Of a stretch of DNA of 64,000 nucleotides, positions 10,339 through 59,660 are shown piece by piece. The DNA lies in the NCBI RefSeq assembly GCF_023703085.1, contig NZ_JAMQJY010000001.1, forward strand, positions 1,116,001 to 1,180,000, in the 5' to 3' direction. A program made the translations under genes and the position numbers. The DNA is from Alkalicoccobacillus plakortidis. Lineage in GTDB: Bacteria > Bacillota > Bacilli > Bacillales > Bacillaceae_D. The notes beneath the pieces are model-generated. The model saw only the letters and a program-made list of their open reading frames with translations, searched no databases and was not told the DNA's origin. Each line of letters starts with the position of its first letter. Position 1 is the stretch's first letter.

Positions 10339-13334
10339 AATGATTATACATGGAGGCTGGATAAACAAGGTTTTTTTTGTTTGGGCTGAACAAGTTAAAA
10401 AATCTAGATTTGATCAGGTTGATAGCTTTAAATACCCGTTTCTTTATTCGCCTTTTGAACTAAAGCTGCTACTTTATCAATTTGACCCCCATTCTTTTTA
10501 TGGAACATTTATTCACACGGGTCAAGCCGTTCTTCAAGTTCCGCTTCTAAATCGACAGGTGCAATCACCAACTTGGCGAGGCAACCGTTTACCAAGCAGA
10601 TGCTCAAACAAAACAGTATCCATTTCCTGTTGAAGGTATACGACTTAGTGCTGATGAGTTCGTTTCACAGCTTCCTTTACTTAAGAAATGGGCTACACTG
10701 CCCCATGTTGAGATTGGTGCTGATCTTCAAATATGGACTCATTTAGCTGATGAGGTATGGATGATGATTGAAGACGGACAGTTCCTTCCCGCTGCTGATG
10801 GGAGCTGGAAACTAAAAGAAAACATGATTCCACTTGATTCTTGGACAGCGTCTCTTCCAAAAGCTAGCCTTTCTTTAAAGTCTGAACAAACGATGACGAG
10901 ACAAAAACCTTCAGAAACCAACTATGAAAATCAAGTTCTAAACGCTTTAAACCTGATAACAGATGCTGCCGTACGTTCTTTAATGCAAAATAATGATGTC
11001 TACAAGGCTTTTACCCAATGGCAGGAAAGTGTTGGTGATAAGTGGAAGCCGTTAGTTCAATCTTTGGCTTCTTCTGACCGGAATCCAAAGCTTACACAGC
11101 CAACAGGTCGACTAGATCAAGAACTAGGTACGGTCAAACTGCCTCCTTTTCAAACAGCTTTGCGAGTTGAAGAACCACTTGAATCAAGTGAACCGTGGAA
11201 AGTCAAGCTATGCTTATCTGACAGACTTCACCCTACGTATATAGTCGATATGGTTGATTTAGAAAAGGGCGAGCATCCTTGGAGGGTCAATCCGATTAGC
11301 CAGTTGAAATCAGATGCTCATATGATTTCAAAAACGATTCCGTACTTAAATGAGATTGGGTTATCCCATGCTGAGATCGAGTTACATGCAGATGATGTAT
11401 TTACATTATGCACCAACTTTAATGAGCAGTTAAAAGAACTTGGTGTTCATTTAATTGTTCCAAATTGGCTGAAGCAACGTAAACAACTAAGTGTGAACTT
11501 GGCCATTGATACACCTAAACAGAATAATGCGTATAGTGAACCGTTATTAAACTGGGAGAATGTTGCGAATTTCACTTATAACATCGCCATTGGAGATGTT
11601 GTGCTTTCATCAGAGGATTTTACGCAATATGTTGAGGAAAAGAGACCTTTTATTTATCAAAATGGACAGTGGATAGCTTGGGATCCTTCTATGGCTAAAA
11701 AACTTCAATCCTATCTTGAGCATCTTGATCAGAAAGCAACCTACTTAGATACACTTCTACTTGATGAATTAGATGCCGATCAGGATCAAACCGGTCTCGA
11801 TGTTGACTGGGAAGTTGAATGGCAGGAGGAGATGAAGGACAGCTTAACAAAGATTTATCAAGAGGAACCACCATTAGTTCACTTGCCTCAATTGTTTACT
11901 GGTGAGCTACGAGCCTATCAACATCAAGGTGTTTCATGGTTGGCTCATTTACGCCGAGCCGGCTTTGGTGGTGTATTAGCTGATGACATGGGACTTGGGA
12001 AGTCCATTCAGACCTTAGTCTATATGCTCTATGTCAAAGACGCTCAAAAAAAAGCAAACGAATCATCAGAACCATTTTTACTCATTTGCCCAACTTCCCT
12101 GTTATACAATTGGGCACACGAGGCCAAACAATTTGCTCCCTCACTACGAGTATTTATTCATCATGGTCAAACAAGAATTACTCAACTGTTAGACAGTGAT
12201 GAACTAGATCAATGGGATGTTGTTCTAACGTCTTATCAACTTGCTGTAAGGGACGCTGAGGCGTTTAAAACCATTCAGTGGAATGGCATGGTACTAGATG
12301 AGGCACAACATATTAAAAATGTGGATACAAAACAACGACGAGTCATTAAACAGTTTCGGGCCAATCACATTTTTGCACTAACTGGAACTCCTATCGAGAA
12401 CCGTCTAAGAGAACTATGGTCACTCATGGATGTTACCAATCCAAGTTTATTAGGTCGATACAGTGCCTTCCAGAATCAATTTATTAAAAAGATTGAAAAG
12501 GAAAAAGATCAACAGCGCTTGGAGCAGCTTCAGGCGACGATTCGACCTTTTGTACTTAGAAGGAAAAAGAATGATCTGTCATTACAGTTAAACCTGCCAG
12601 AGAAGCGTGAGCGTATCCATAACGTCCACCTTTCACTTGAACAAGCAGCCTATTATCAAGCTGTTGTTGAAGAAGTGAGTAAACAGCTTAACGAAGTATC
12701 CAATATGGAGAGACGTTCTCTTATCTTACGGAGTTTAACCAGGTTAAAACAAATTTGTAATCACCCTGCACATTTTTTAAAAACAAAGGATATGGACGCA
12801 CACGAATCAGGAAAATGGACTGAGTTTGTACGTATTGTTGATGAAATCCAAGCCAACAACGAAAAGGTATTGATTTTCACTCAATATAAAGAGATGGGTT
12901 CTTTAATCACTCAAGAATTAGAAAAACGCTACAGCCGTCCTGTTCCTTTTTTACATGGAAGCTTAACACGAGCGATGAGACAGGCTGTCATTACTGACTT
13001 TCAAACAAATGAAGAAACAACCGCATTTGTGCTTTCTTTAAAAGCTGGTGGAGTTGGCTTAAACCTAACTGCAGCCACACATGTCATCCACTATGATCGC
13101 TGGTGGAATCCTGCTGTCGAAAATCAAGCGACAGACCGCGCATTTAGAATTGGTCAAACATCAGATGTAACCGTTCATAAACTTATTACAACGGGTACGG
13201 TCGAGGAACGAATTGATCGCATGCTTGTGACGAAGCAATCTCTCGCGGATGAAATCTTGTCATCAGATGCTGCGAAATTTACAGAGATGACAAATGATGA
13301 GGTACTGAACTTAATCCGTTTAACCAAAGACTAA
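10331..13334 (+). CDS. SNF2/RapA-type DEAD/DEAH helicase (YwqA-like; frame broken near N-terminus)
   Basis: A Swi2/Snf2 family double-stranded-DNA translocase of about 1000 residues. An N-terminal SNF2-associated region is followed by the ATPase core: GVLADDMGLGKSIQTLVYML (Walker A, about residue 550), LDEAQHIKN (Walker B, about 655), LTGTPIENRLRELWSLMD, then the helicase C lobe with FTQYKEMG, HGSLTR, LSLKAGGVGLNLTAATHVI and ATDRAFRIGQT. The first about 80 residues are in a different frame from the rest; deleting one T of CTTGG at 10573-10574 yields ...QSPTGEATVYQAD... and a continuous protein. ATG 10331 (alternatively 10340) overlaps the upstream stop codon. Likely roles are removing proteins from DNA or transcription-associated repair; specificity is unknown. 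Confidence 0.88.
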
Positions 13335-16538: not shown

Positions 16539-17628
16539 TCAATCAACTGGCTTTGCTATCTTTAATTTAATCAGTCGATATGTGTGAGAAACAATGACTT
16601 TGCCTACCGCATACGTTGGAACAGCTAAAAGCAATCCTAATAATCCAGCAAAACGACTTGCCACTAATAATAGAAATATAATCGTTACTGGGTGGACATT
16701 TAATTGACGTCCCATTATTTGTGGAGAGATTAAGTTACTTTCAATTTGTTGAATAACCAACACGCCTAAAATAACGGCAAGAACCATAAATGGAGAATCA
16801 AATAGTGCCACAATAACAGCCGGAGCTGTCCCAATCCATGGACCGATAAACGGAATGACATTTGTGAGCATCGCAACAATCGCTAAAACAAGTGCGTATT
16901 CAAGTCCAATACTCAAATACAAGATTAAGCACAAAATACCCACACATACACTCACAAGAATTTGCCCCTGAAGGTATGAGCTTAATGCCTTATCCATATC
17001 AGAAAGAATGCGACGACCTTCCTCCTGTTGTTTAGCAGGAACAAATTTTAATAGGAAAGCTTGGAGCTTTGTCTCCTTCTTTTAATAGATAAAATAAAAC
17101 AAAAGGGAAAATAACAAGAACAATCACAACACTCGCAACGGCCCCTATCACTTTTGCAATATTTGAACCAAGTGAGGTCACATAGCCTTCTAAATTTCCA
17201 GTGATCTTTTCAACGATATCGTTAAATGAGTTCTGTCCAGACTCTTGAAAACGCTGAACATATTCATTTTCTTGTAAATTAAGGATCATGTCTTGTCCTT
17301 GTTCAATATAAGTTGGAACATTATCTACAAAGCTGCTTGTTTGAGATTGAATTTCAGGACCAATAAGTAACACACTTCCAGTTCCTAGCCCAATTAATGC
17401 CAGGAATACAATGAGGATAGAAAGGCCTCTCGGAATTTTTTTACTTAAAAGGTTCACTAAAGGTCTTAATAGATAGTAAAATACTCCTGCAATTGCAATG
17501 GGAGCAAACAATGTTTGTACTAGAATAGCAATTGGTTGGAAGATAAAGCTTACCAATGAAGCAAGATAAATGATAAGCAAGATTAGAGCAATTCCAACCC
17601 CTACTCTAAAAGATTTCGACTGAGGCAT
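16539..17628 (-). CDS. AI-2E family transporter (frame broken in the middle)
   Basis: A polytopic membrane protein of the AI-2E/PerM family (YtvI/YueF type), about 362 residues, with N-terminal hydrophobic segments, a central soluble region (VPTYIEQGQDMILNLQENEY) and C-terminal segments containing the family motif NVIPFIGPWIGTAPAVIVAL. The two halves (17628-17032 and 16997-16539) are in different frames. Removing one T from CTTGG on the plus strand (17061-17062) gives LLKEGDKAPAFLLKFVPAKQ, joining them exactly as in the family. Some relatives in alkaliphiles are Na+/H+ antiporter-like; here the substrate is unknown. ATG 17628 follows GGAAGG. Confidence 0.83.
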
Positions 17629-17818
17629 ATAGGGCAATTTCCTTCCTAAAACATTTTTTTTAAGTATATCACTCTTATTGATGAACAGGAAACGGGGACA
17701 GATATTATATTCTATCTATATTTCTAACCTTTGATTTTTAGACATGACTTTTGGTTTATGATGATTTTCATATGGGTAATGAATAATAATAGTCTTATTT
17801 TTTGAAGGAGGGTTTCCG

Positions 17819-18391
17819 TTGAAAGCCAAACTAGGTCTAGCAATTGGAACAAGCCTGATGTTGGTGGCTTGTGGGCAAGGAAATGACGAAACACCAACCA
17901 CGGATACGGGACAAAATGAACCTGAAGAAGAAACTAATCAAGAAGCGGAAGACGAAATGACAACCGAGAGCGTCTATTTGTTTTTCCCTGATGAAAATGT
18001 CGAGGAGCTATACCGAGTTGAGCGTAGTATCTCCCAAGACGACATTGAAGGGGCAACTGAAGCATTAGAGCTGTGGCTTGAAGGTCCAGAAACAGATGAA
18101 TCAAACTTGACCACACTTACTAATGACTCTGCCATCGAGGTGCAGTCTGTTGAAGAAGAGGATGGAATTGCATATGTATCCTTCTCACCAGAATTCTTAG
18201 ACATACAAGTAGGCTCAGGAACAGAAGAGATGCTCCTGCAGCAAGTTGCCTTAATTATGGATCAATTTGGTTATGAAGAAACACAAATTTTAATAGATGG
18301 TGAAACACAAGAACAGCTATTCGGACACATTCAAACCGACCAACCAATTACCTCAGAGGACCCAGAATCATACGAGTTGGTCGAGTCATAA
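17819..18391 (+). CDS. Lipoprotein with GerMN domain
   Basis: A 190-residue lipoprotein. The signal peptide MKAKLGLAIGTSLMLVAC ends in lipobox L-V-A-C; an acidic, Thr/Glu-rich linker (residues about 19-48) leads to a GerMN domain (ESVYLFFPDENVEELYRVER, ALELWLEGPE, VSFSPEFLDIQVGSGTEEM). GerMN occurs in GerM of B. subtilis (sporulation and germination) and in other envelope lipoproteins. The start is TTG 17819 with AAGGAGGG 6 bases upstream. It is monocistronic, ending in a terminator at 18410. Confidence 0.8.
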   Translation: MKAKLGLAIGTSLMLVACGQGNDETPTTDTGQNEPEEETNQEAEDEMTTESVYLFFPDENVEELYRVERSISQDDIEGATEALELWLEGPETDESNLTTLTNDSAIEVQSVEEEDGIAYVSFSPEFLDIQVGSGTEEMLLQQVALIMDQFGYEETQILIDGETQEQLFGHIQTDQPITSEDPESYELVES

Positions 18392-18409
18392 AGGAGATTC
18401 CTACGCTTT

Positions 18410-18448
18410 AGCTCTCATGCGGGAAAATGCCGCTTGGGAGCTTTTTTT
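18410..18448 (+). terminator. Terminator after the GerMN lipoprotein gene
   Basis: AGCTCTCATGCGG (18410-18422) pairs imperfectly with CCGCTTGGGAGCT (18430-18442), followed by TTTTTT. Confidence 0.75.
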
Positions 18449-18504
18449 CGCTATTATGCAAAACCGTTGAAGACTCAGGGTAAAATAAGAGTGGAAAATC
18501 GCTA

Positions 18505-19185
18505 AGGGCAATACCAAGAAACATCTAGTCAAAACCAAGCTACATTGCAATTCATCAAGATGCTTGTTTCGATAGCAAGAGAAATTGACGAAACGTCAAG
18601 AGGGATTGATCTTTTACTAAGATCTGAGTCCCTACACAAAGAATAACAGCGGAGGAAACAAGAGCCTCTCTACCTTAGCAAGAGAAAGGACAACTTTAGC
18701 AAGGACCTCCTGCATCACATCAAGAACACTCTTCAAGTCCTAAGACCACACAGCATTTCACAAGCGTCAAATTGACTAAAAGGAATAAACCTATTCAGGT
18801 TTAGATCGATTAGACAAAGAATGCAAAGCAAAGAAGGCGTGAGCGCAATACCAAGAAAAACGAGATCGCAATCAAGGTAGATTGCTGATTCACCAAGAGG
18901 TCAGCTGCGGTAGCAAGAAAGAATGACGTTAAATCAAGCGGAATCAATCTTTTACTAAGCTCAGTACCTCTACTCTAAGAGAAAACGAGATCAAACCAAG
19001 AGCCTCGTCCCATTAGCAAGAAAAACAGTACTTTTAGCAAGAACCTTCGTCCTCACACCAAGAGTCTTCTCCAATACCAAGCCCTTCCTCCCCTCACCAA
19101 GAGCCCTCTTCCAAGTACCAAGGCCTTCCTCTCCTCACCAAGAGCCTTCTCCCTATACAAGACCACTCTACTACCACCAGCACTA
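18505..19185. repeat. Degenerate 20-21 bp periodic array (array A, CAAG core)
   Basis: No gene fits here. A core CAAG (usually ACCAAGAG or AGCAAGAA, sometimes TAAG or CAAAG) recurs at 18515, 18536, 18556, 18576, 18597, 18618, 18637, 18659, 18679, 18700, 18721, 18741 and 18761, then at 18852, 18873, 18894, 18914, 18935, 18956, 18976, 18997, 19017, 19038, 19059, 19078, 19098, 19119, 19139 and 19158. Spacing is almost always 20 or 21 bases (mean about 20.5). Sequence between cores varies. The block 18508-18728 is repeated in diverged form 337-338 bases later. It lies between convergent genes. Confidence 0.85.
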
Positions 19186-19311
19186 AAGCCTCCAACTCAT
19201 CCCGCTTCCCACAAACAATCTCTTTTTAGAACAAAAAAGAGGCGAAAGATCCCACTATTGTAGAATCAATCGCCTATCTTGTTTAAAAATGTTTTATCAT
19301 TTGACTTAAAT
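19186..19311 (-). other. Spacer with possible weak terminator
   Basis: No gene. On minus, GGCGATTGATTC... and ...ATCTTTCGCCTCTTTTTTG form a loosely paired hairpin ending in a T-run (about 19236-19283), a plausible terminator for the gene at 19312-19896. Confidence 0.4.
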
Positions 19312-19896
19312 CTAATTCTCTACATATGTAAACTGATGCTGTGGAAAACGTTCGGTCAACTGTTCTATTAAATAATCTTGGTCAAAACCACTTGGTTCTT
19401 CATCAATGATTTGTTTGATCGTTTCAGAAACGTTTTGCTGATAATATGACACCATATCAACCGATTGATCTGCCCTAATTAGAGATTCATTCTCTCTTAT
19501 GAAATCAACAAGATCCTGATAATTTGTTGTTTCAATTACGACGGAAATTTCCTCATCTGTATCCTGTGCTTGAACGGTTATTGGCTGTTGTTCGTATTCA
19601 TTAATCACAAGTGGAAGTGGTAAAGAAAAAGCGCGCGCCTGGCCCTGTTCTACTTCTTGCACGTTATTTTTGTTAACAAATAAATCTCCTAAATAAGCTT
19701 GAGGAATGACATTTGATACACTGAAATATGTAGCAACGGCAAAAGCACTTAGTAAAATAGCAACGATATGATCATTTTGCTTTGATTTTGTTTTTTCTTT
19801 AAAAAGTTTTGGTATGAGTAAACTCCCAACTGTTACAAATGCAATCAAGAGTCCAACTAATAGAATTTGAAATGGTACCTCACTTAATACAATCAC
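19312..19896 (-). CDS. Uncharacterised membrane-anchored protein
   Basis: A 194-residue protein starting at GTG 19896 (AGAGAGGAAG upstream). There are two N-terminal hydrophobic segments (PFQILLVGLLIAFVTVGSLL and HIVAILLSAFAVATYFSVSN), a short loop with KEKTKSKQ between them and a soluble C-terminal domain of about 130 residues that should be extracytoplasmic (EVEQGQARAFSLPLPLVINE; VDMVSYYQQNVSETIKQIID). I do not recognise a family. It is 90 bases downstream of the acyl-CoA carboxylase gene on the same strand, so cotranscription is possible. Confidence 0.65.
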   Translation of the reverse strand: MIVLSEVPFQILLVGLLIAFVTVGSLLIPKLFKEKTKSKQNDHIVAILLSAFAVATYFSVSNVIPQAYLGDLFVNKNNVQEVEQGQARAFSLPLPLVINEYEQQPITVQAQDTDEEISVVIETTNYQDLVDFIRENESLIRADQSVDMVSYYQQNVSETIKQIIDEEPSGFDQDYLIEQLTERFPQHQFTYVEN

Positions 19897-19986
19897 ACGA
19901 TTCTTCCTCTCTTCAGTCAAGCGTAAAACCACCTTATATGCTACCACAGGTTTGAACTAGAGAGAAGGAAAAACACCACCAATCCG

Positions 19987-39338: not shown

Positions 39339-39552
39339 CTATCGATTTCATAGTTGTAGACTATCGCTTTGATCCGGGGGCTATCGTTTCACTTTTGCCT
39401 TCTATCGTTTCGATCTGAGGGCTATCGTTTCACTTTTGCTGTCTATCGTTTCGATCAGGGCTCCATCGTTTCACTTTTGCTGTCCATCGTTTCAATCTGG
39501 GCTCCATCGCTCCATTCCGAGCTCCATTGCTCCACTTTCACACTCCATCGCT
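39339..39552. repeat. Degenerate 20-21 bp periodic array (array B, CTATCG/CCATCG core)
   Basis: The core ATCG, in CTATCG then CCATCG context, recurs at 39341, 39363, 39383, 39404, 39424, 39445, 39465, 39486, 39506, 39526 (ATTG) and 39547, i.e. steps of 22, 20, 21, 20, 21, 20, 21, 20, 20, 21. Two unit types alternate, CTATCGTTTCACTTTTGC and CTATCGTTTCGATC, making a 41-base dimer. The right-hand units drift to CCATCGCTCC. It is non-coding and lies between the dinB-like gene and the pstS promoter. Confidence 0.85.
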
Positions 39553-39577
39553 CCCCCTAAATCATCACAACAAAATC

Positions 39578-39616
39578 AAAAAAAAACAGCAAGCATCCTT
39601 TAGATACTCGCTCGTT
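39578..39616 (-). terminator. Terminator after the DinB family gene
   Basis: AGCAAGCATCC (39588-39598) pairs with GATACTCGCT (39603-39612) on the other arm with G-T pairs; on minus a run of nine T follows. Confidence 0.7.
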
Positions 39617-39636: not shown

Positions 39637-40113
39637 TTATTTCTGTTGTTGTTCAATCGTCGGACCATAGATTCCAGGTACTGGAAGTCCCGCTTGACGA
39701 AGTAAAACTGTCATTTGTCCACGATGGTGACCTTGGTGACTTGTAAGCATACGTAATACATGGCCTTTTGGACTAGGTGAACCGAAGAAATCAATGACTT
39801 CTGAGAAATCTTCATCTGTCCATTCCGCTTTTATTTCTTTAAGAAGATCTGAGCTGATTTTATTATAAGTGTCTAAAATCGTTGCTGCTTGATTTGGCAC
39901 TTCTTTTGTTTGAGTTTCAAGGTTTTTGATGCCAACTACGGATGCGAAAAATGGAATGGTTGTAGTCAAATGCCATCCTAACCAACCAAGTGAGCTGTGA
40001 CCTTCTACAATTGACTGTCCTAATGTTTCATCTGTAAGTGAATCTAATACTTTAATCGTTAAATCTTTCTCTACAGCCCATTCTTGTAAAAAATCTTCTT
40101 TTGTTCTAAACAT
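39637..40113 (-). CDS. DinB family protein (putative metal-dependent hydrolase/thiol transferase fold)
   Basis: A 158-residue four-helix-bundle protein of the DinB/YfiT superfamily. The three metal-binding histidines are in GWLGWHLTTTIPFF and SHQGHHRGQMTVLLRQAG. ATG 40113 follows AGAAGGAG. In B. subtilis such genes are DNA-damage-inducible or act as bacillithiol transferases; nothing here decides. It is monocistronic, with its own terminator. Confidence 0.85.
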   Translation of the reverse strand: MFRTKEDFLQEWAVEKDLTIKVLDSLTDETLGQSIVEGHSSLGWLGWHLTTTIPFFASVVGIKNLETQTKEVPNQAATILDTYNKISSDLLKEIKAEWTDEDFSEVIDFFGSPSPKGHVLRMLTSHQGHHRGQMTVLLRQAGLPVPGIYGPTIEQQQK

Positions 40114-40226
40114 TTTGTACACTCCTTCTACTAACAATCATCTTGCTTGTCTAGTATATACAGAAATCAAAAACACTTAAAGAAATAGGGTTTGTTTCAA
40201 ATTAAGCAGTATCTTTGCGAAAAACC

Positions 40227-43450: not shown

Positions 43451-43561
43451 CTCTTATCTACCAAGGTAACCTTGTGAGAATTAGCACCTTGAATAGCTAA
43501 AAAGCCAAAACAGGTTGCCGGGTATCATCGGGTTCGTCCCTCCACCAGCTCTTCATAAGAG
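43451..43561 (-). ncRNA. SAM-I (S-box) riboswitch controlling mtnWXBD
   Basis: On minus the element starts CTCTTATGAAGAGCTGGTGG, continues AGGGACGAACCCGATGATAC and CCGGCAACC, then GGTGCTAATTCTCACAAG, and closes with GATAAGAG, which pairs with CTCTTATG (P1). These are the conserved S-box blocks. SAM binding favours the terminator just downstream, lowering methionine salvage when SAM is plentiful. Confidence 0.95.
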
Positions 43562-43740: not shown

Positions 43741-43887
43741 CTCTTATCGAGAGTTGGCTGAGGGAATTGGCCCTATGAAGCCCGGCAACCGACCTAATCA
43801 TCATTCTACTAATATGATGAAAACCTTTAAGGTTTTAAGGCACGGTGCTACATCCAACAGACTCTTCCCGAGTCTGAAAGATAAGAG
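43741..43887 (+). ncRNA. SAM-I (S-box) riboswitch controlling the importer-mtnK-mtnA operon
   Basis: Starts CTCTTATCGAGAGTTGGCTG, continues AGGGAATTGGCCCTATGAAG and CCCGGCAACC, includes an enlarged P3 arm (TCATCATTC...GATGAAAACC), then GGCACGGTGCTACATCC and closes with GATAAGAG pairing with CTCTTATC. The aptamer is about 36 bases longer than the divergent copy because of that arm. Confidence 0.95.
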
Positions 43888-59559: not shown

Positions 59560-59660
59560 TTATATACTCAGACTCGCCATTTCAGGTAAGGAATCTCCTA
59601 TTTGAACCTGTTCCGCGCGGTTGTAGTTCTTTGGGTGCAACCAAATCACTAACATTACCC
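59560..59660 (-). ncRNA. Probable L21 leader (ribosomal protein autoregulatory element)
   Basis: The roughly 100-base untranslated region upstream of rplU contains several short complementary segments and lies where the L21 leader is found in other Firmicutes. I recognise it by position; I did not verify the full consensus. Confidence 0.4.

Follow-up and report, generated by a model that had tools for sequence, protein, structure and literature searches.

STAR elements of Staphylococcus aureus have a short conserved intergenic core, T(G/A/T)TGTTG(G/T)GGCCC(C/A), of the GC-rich GGGGCCC type, and poorly conserved spacers; they occupy many loci and have no assigned function. Plasmid iterons, the sites of RepA/RepE/TrfA-type initiators, are oriented direct repeats of about 17–22 bp that lie two turns apart and are bound head to tail. 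REP/BIME sequences of enterobacteria are multi-copy elements behind gene 3' ends, with several classes per genome and proposed links to gyrase and the nucleoid. Phased A-tracts form curved DNA with a helical periodicity of one turn.

The array described here, A1, lies in a 64,000-nt stretch of the Alkalicoccobacillus plakortidis chromosome (hereafter the window; contig 1, 1116001–1180000, of a 4.37-Mb genome, G000). A1 belongs to a set of non-coding DNA arrays spread over the whole genome, in each of which an oriented core of ~7–10 bp recurs every ~20.5 bp, or two turns of B-DNA. The window contains a second array, A2, with a different core; this array, the other cores, the modules and the dispersal go beyond an earlier note that had described A1. 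Genes were called as simple ORFs and named by eye; those flanking A1 and A2 resemble a lipoprotein, an unassigned protein, a phosphate-binding protein and a DinB-like protein. The features, in window coordinates, are:

17819..18391, + strand: small lipoprotein-like gene (by eye), left neighbour of A1, with an orthologue in A. murimartini
18410..18448, + strand: terminator-like hairpin and T run downstream of the lipoprotein gene, immediately ahead of A1 (by eye)
18501..18761, + strand: A1 module 1, 13 in-phase cores, consensus ACCAAGA, step 20/21 bp
18787..18802, no strand: palindrome AAACCT-n4-AGGTTT between the A1 modules
18842..19158, + strand: A1 module 2 with additional 41-bp repeats, 16 cores in all
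19312..19947, - strand: convergent gene of unassigned function, right neighbour of A1, with orthologues in relatives
39340..39565, + strand: A2, core about C[CT]AT[CT]G[CT]T[TC]C, period 20.5/41 bp as in A1
39588..39612, - strand: terminator-like hairpin between the end of gene 39637–40137(-) and A2 (1 found; shuffles mean 0.5)

Elsewhere in the window, Rfam matches a back-to-back pair of SAM riboswitches, one on each strand, at 43451–43561(-) and 43741–43887(+), and an L21 leader at 59560–59632(-). A permease-like gene near A1 (16539–17637) consists here of two ORFs, 16539–16997 and 17032–17637, and is a single ORF of 365–366 aa in A. gibsonii and A. murimartini; it is either a broken gene or an assembly error.

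The earlier note had counted about 29 CAAG cores in A1, in two runs at steps averaging 20.5 and 20.4 bp, and our count agrees: between 18515 and 19158 there are 29 in-phase cores, 24 exact and five near-matches. Run 1 (18515–18761) has 13 cores, ten exact and three matching in three of four letters, at a step of 20.5 bp. Run 2 (18852–19158) has 16; 13 exact cores and two with three of four letters sit on a 20.4-bp grid, and the sixteenth is an exact CAAG at 19059, 2–3 bp off that grid. CAAG occurs 26 times in 18400–19260. The predicted autocorrelation peak is present: 17 CAAG pairs in 18505–19185 are spaced 20 or 21 bp apart. In 2000 shuffles that preserve dinucleotides such pairs average 0.15 and never exceed 2, and 20000 random placements of an equal number of cores yield at most 10. 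Self-identity of the whole A1 sequence is 0.32 at lag 20, 0.35 at 21 and 0.38 at both 41 and 62, and 0.22–0.31 at most remaining lags. The two runs look like duplicate copies of one ~250-bp module (73% identity over 44 bp, offset 337). The 20.5-bp step breaks the reading frame and no long ORF spans A1, the longest stop-free stretch touching it being 94 codons; the cores, ~7 bp long, are degenerate and the repeats not identical. A repeat protein and a CRISPR array, both dismissed earlier, are thus rejected here as well. A1 does occupy a gap between convergent genes, 17819–18391(+) and 19312–19947(-), as had been stated; that it follows a terminator holds only by eye, the 18410..18448 hairpin not being among the sites listed by a consensus terminator scan.

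A1-type arrays were sought with the pattern CAAG-N15-18-CAAG-N15-18-CAAG, with the reversed pattern as control. The genome contains 814 such three-core matches versus 13 for the control, and BLAST of A1 against its own genome gave 23 matches at E<0.001, itself included, with ~13 further places and 67–77% identity in the longer matches. A sample of 864 kb (40 evenly spaced 20-kb stretches, contig 1 only, plus the window) was also scanned for any period of 12–50 bp without reference to a core. This core-blind scan returned 33 non-coding or frame-breaking periodic regions, 31 at 20–21 or 40–41.5 bp and the remaining two at 12 and 36 bp; read individually, 30 of the 31 are arrays, A2 among them, and one is coding-looking (21 bp, L086 19261–19520). 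A comparison set from diverse genomes (1289 kb, 78 loci, L112–L189) gave 11 periodic regions with scattered periods, one of them at 41 bp. An array with alternating TTAAGAGCG and CATGAGCGG cores at ~20.75 bp (L074 1641–1880) is absent from our hand list, and a hand-listed 21-bp array (L091 3840–4090) is not among the 33 regions. About 29 arrays, 28 hand-listed and one missed, were found in a fifth of the genome, and the chromosome total would scale to well over a hundred. Another repetitive locus, L105 6330–6960 (G000:C1 about 2166330–2166960), comprises a row of ~6 very short ORFs (MFTDILVQLFESVSNAIGTLG type, 21 residues apiece), every one with a ribosome-binding-site-like sequence of its own (by eye).

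By eye, the regions in the 864-kb sample fall into ~8 core types that share the two-turn step. Types 1 to 4 are CTCTTGGT (the A1 type, other strand), C[CT]ATCG (A2), CTCTTTACCGATATC and CTCATCCTCGATTCC, the third and fourth of which intergrade within one array (L083); types 5 to 8 are CTCATGGAGCTCG, TTTTTGAGCAC/CCGCGCAC, ACATGCGAGG and CCGATGTATT. The step of class 3/6 is nearer 20.0 and other families range from 20.0 to 21.0, so the phase across a whole long array differs between classes. In the A1 class (class 1), 41 chains with 368 units have 158 steps of 20 bp, 160 of 21, six of 19 and three of 22. Their mean step per chain is 20.506, a measure of the mean of the period and not of its existence, because the chain finder admits only steps of 19–22 bp; the core-blind scan alone is therefore independent evidence for the period. 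CAAG–CAAG distances in the sample form a comb at 20/21, 41, 61/62, 82, 102/103 and 123 bp, to which near-identical repeats of 41 bp, present in several arrays, contribute. With the listed arrays masked the comb is mostly gone, yet 21 remains the top distance among multiples of three. A phase-order test gave an equivocal result, with 7 of 20 chains at p<0.05 (median p 0.27).

Copies of the module keep core and spacing while their spacers drift, in line with the claim that phase is retained and spacers are poorly conserved. The ~250-bp module could be aligned over its length in eleven copies from ten places, which differ pairwise by 33% on average. Column identity is 0.87 in the core and 0.58 in the spacer, the core columns being defined by the consensus of the same alignment, which favours core identity somewhat. 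The 55 pairs differ by 4440 substitutions and 50 indel events in total, or 89 substitutions per indel, in counts that are not independent over pairs and come from copies within one genome that are related and maybe homogenised. Fifty comparisons of ordinary intergenic gaps with three congeners, some including short coding parts, gave 2589 substitutions and 106 indels, or 24 per indel. Palindromes punctuate A1-class arrays (L100 5349, L101 10886, L103 8178 and 13230, window 18787, L078 17443). In the sample, two of three AAACCT-n4-AGGTTT palindromes and all four of the AATAAAAATG...CATTTTTATT type lie in or within 80 bp of listed arrays, and both types have GGAATAAA-like sequence ahead at several places.

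Flanking genes could be assigned for 27 of the 28 hand-listed arrays: 12 occupy convergent gaps, 14 tandem gaps and one a divergent gap, against a background of 71 convergent, 294 tandem and 86 divergent gaps (Fisher p 0.0007 for the convergent excess and 0.04 for the divergent deficit). A tRNA suspected by eye beside the single divergent array (L071) was confirmed by neither ARAGORN nor Rfam, and the array was counted as divergent. Of the 14 arrays in tandem gaps, 13 lie closer to the gene upstream, at its 3' end, than to the gene downstream (p 0.002; two are near ties). All nine rRNA-linked arrays read ACCAAGA in the direction of transcription, but among five tandem protein-gene gaps with class-1 arrays the core follows the direction of transcription in two and opposes it in three; no orientation rule was drawn, and this split favours DNA over RNA. 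Class-1 arrays directly follow 5S genes in 4 of 8 cases in G000, 4 of 9 in G003 and 1 of 2 in G004, compared with none behind the single 5S gene of G001 or the four of G002 (three of these four cut at contig ends); rRNA cases within one species are not independent. Several 5S genes without a class-1 array run into tRNA genes. The GC skew of contig 1 turns at ~0.4 Mb, which we take as the terminus. The presumed origin-proximal half has 20 of 28 arrays in 400 of the 864 kb (p 0.012), a weak trend toward the origin.

A1 and A2 are not fixed in the genus. Judged by a neighbouring carboxylase-like protein, the nearest named species are A. murimartini (G002, 79%) and A. gibsonii (G001, 72%), and the gap orthologous to that of A1 has no array in either species. 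In both, this gap contains another dispersed-looking element of the GAGAAACC ... GGTTTCTCCTTCC type (by eye; L110 about 12270–12400 and L111 about 12220–12370), and a similar one lies in L191 at about 2250–2390. The A2-orthologous site carries arrays, with differing cores, in two of five genomes compared (G000 and G004); G001, G002 and G003 have a hairpin-like terminator by the phosphate-gene promoter and no array there. In G004 the flanks of the gap are 10 kb apart, the promoter flank bearing a CTCTTGGT array and the DinB-like gene end a third core type, CCGCATGTCGTTATG. One orthologous flank thus holds different cores at a common period in two species. Absence from the orthologous gaps of sister species indicates that these arrays are dispensable.

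CAAG arrays abound in all five genomes of the genus, with 814, 245, 396, 226 and 1314 three-core matches (controls 8–17), and core-blind samples of G001, G003 and G004 gave 12 of 13 regions at 20–20.5 or 41 bp. Among 75 non-congeneric genomes only six have at least 60 CAAG matches, and two of these (G023, G075) have high controls. Most of 199 Bacillota genomes surveyed show no raised number of CAAG arrays, the two highest counts outside the order being 92 and 42 (controls 12 and 5). An ATCG pattern has at least 100 matches in 11 of 150 genomes of the order (G141 with a high control); ATCG-core arrays were read in six of them (G000, G104, G110, G141, G146, G178), and in the other five (G001, G128, G132, G144, G156) the pattern was counted. 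G132 and G144 showed no array in 80 kb each, and their core-blind samples and that of G052 no periodic region. In other families the core-blind scan placed at 20–21 bp three of four regions in G110, one of one in G141, one of three in G075 and none of two in G104. The two in G104 are non-coding arrays (L297 3461–3840 and 12061–12520) with a 26.5/53-bp unit, a clear departure from 20–21 bp; arrays of 20/21 bp are present elsewhere in that genome. Frame-breaking arrays of 20–21 bp with other cores were read outside the genus in G075, G104, G110, G119, G141 and G178. Arrays of exactly 21 bp in G041, G070, G146 and G153 leave the frame unbroken and hence could be coding. Outside the genus such arrays are far from universal.

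A period common to different cores, the drift of spacers, the placement, and the gain, loss and change of cores at an orthologous site form the observed basis for a model to which we assign a probability of roughly 50%: the arrays would be rows of sites for putative core-specific proteins, lined up head to tail along one face of the helix where transcription ends. No transcription-direction rule, no general RNA folding, no coding capacity and a two-turn step together point to DNA. Conserved cores argue for sequence-specific recognition, scarce indels for interaction between neighbouring sites, and several cores per genome for several such proteins or one family. Each core type may be bound by its own protein, whose subunits would sit side by side and bind cooperatively, like replication initiators on iterons. 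A loaded array could mark or stiffen the DNA behind transcription units and serve as a topological barrier, a supercoil sink or a nucleoid anchor; arrays may grow and shrink by duplication of 41-bp unit pairs and spread as modules. Their placement after genes and rRNA operons suggests that they act where supercoils driven by transcription converge, or simply that such a place is safe. Weighing against the model are the dispensability of the arrays, the differences in long-range phase between classes and the equivocal phase-order test. The interpretation in the earlier note is partly upheld: its helical-phase idea gains from the autocorrelation, the arrays elsewhere in the genome and in relatives, and the spacing kept, its structured-RNA alternative found no general support, and a scaffold for a DNA-binding protein is what we infer.

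The main rival, a serious possibility that we nevertheless rather doubt, is that the arrays are satellite-like repeats, selfish or neutral and of no function to the host, which expand through slippage, unequal exchange and the dispersal of modules and persist only where they are harmless, behind terminators; the 20–21-bp unit would then be a product of the expansion machinery. Gain and loss between species, the rarity of arrays in divergent gaps, near-identical 41-bp repeats and the drift of module copies all fit, so that dispersal and turnover are explained well. Core conservation and the common unit length are explained less well: neutral drift does not readily leave cores more conserved than spacers or make indels about fourfold rarer than in ordinary gaps, and several different cores have one unit length. 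Gyrase or topoisomerase wrapping sites, a functional counterpart of REP/BIME in which anisotropic bendability at every second turn attracts gyrase behind strongly transcribed units, are an improbable explanation. The class-1 arrays behind rRNA operons in G000, G003 and G004, the preference for convergent gaps and the excess in the presumed origin-proximal half agree with it, but the 5S genes of G001 and G002 lack class-1 arrays, a general topoisomerase leaves the conserved 7-bp core unexplained, and predicted curvature, computed with wedge parameters and raised somewhat by a 20.5-bp periodicity by construction, exceeds z 2 in just 2 of 16 class-1 arrays (A1, z -0.64). The other classes exceed it in 15 of 15 (17 of 31 overall); with so few class-1 arrays above it, intrinsic curvature was rejected as the common property.

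A structured or regulatory RNA transcribed beyond the terminator would account for positions behind genes, and in three arrays (classes 3+6 and 5) one of the strands has a better fold than its shuffles (z -4.0 to -4.7). As a common cause it is very unlikely: over 28 arrays the mean folding z on the two strands is -0.29 and -0.54, neither A1 nor A2 has an Rfam match, and core strand follows no rule with transcription in the five tandem gaps. Type IIL restriction enzymes like MmeI cleave ~20 nt away from a recognition word that varies, and on paper a constant distance with a changing word would suit arrays that were their targets or by-products; judged by one enzyme family this is scarcely credible, as MmeI_TRD (PF20466) occurs in none of the five genomes of the genus (the control search matches 2 of 14 genomes, including B. 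subtilis) and the cores are degenerate. Plasmid or phage cargo was rejected, blastn giving no match for A1 against plasmids and phages or for A2 against plasmids; a search of 2.9 million viral contigs with the CCAAGA pattern returned 40 stretches, of which 35 have a single match and five have two.

The arrays hint at a DNA-organising system so far undescribed, or at an unusual satellite DNA. Their two-turn spacing is constant although the words differ from locus to locus and from one species or family to another, which makes them a natural experiment on helical phasing in live bacteria. Should proteins bind them, the chromosome would have an unrecognised layer of organisation where transcription ends; should none do so, they are a satellite DNA whose sharply preferred unit length calls for a mutational explanation.

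Among the known systems, phased A-tracts share helical periodicity with the arrays, which differ in their two-turn period and in that curvature is not raised in most class-1 arrays. Like REP/BIME, the arrays are multi-copy, lie behind gene 3' ends and form several classes per genome, but their units are non-palindromic direct repeats at a two-turn step; hairpins with perfect 8-bp arms and a loop of at most 6 nt are absent from 25 of 28 arrays, the three exceptions being of the AATAAAAATG linker type. With STAR elements they have in common intergenic short direct repeats at many loci and non-conserved sequence between them. They differ from these in the cores, ACCAAGA in A1 and about C[CT]ATCG in A2 (compared by reading), in having several cores and a 20–21-bp period, and in lying near the 3' ends of genes. 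Iterons, too, are oriented repeats spaced by two turns; the arrays, however, are chromosomal, in many copies, with several cores and drifting spacers, and no replication initiator gene was recognised among the ORFs read by eye beside A1. Tentatively, and with more doubt than conviction, some Bacillales may possess a chromosome-organising system in which several rapidly changing families of putative DNA-binding proteins, each in a head-to-tail row on a core word of its own at two-turn steps, act on arrays of invariant geometry retained behind transcription units, word and protein co-evolving and being replaced at the same sites, much as eukaryotic centromere satellites co-evolve with their proteins.
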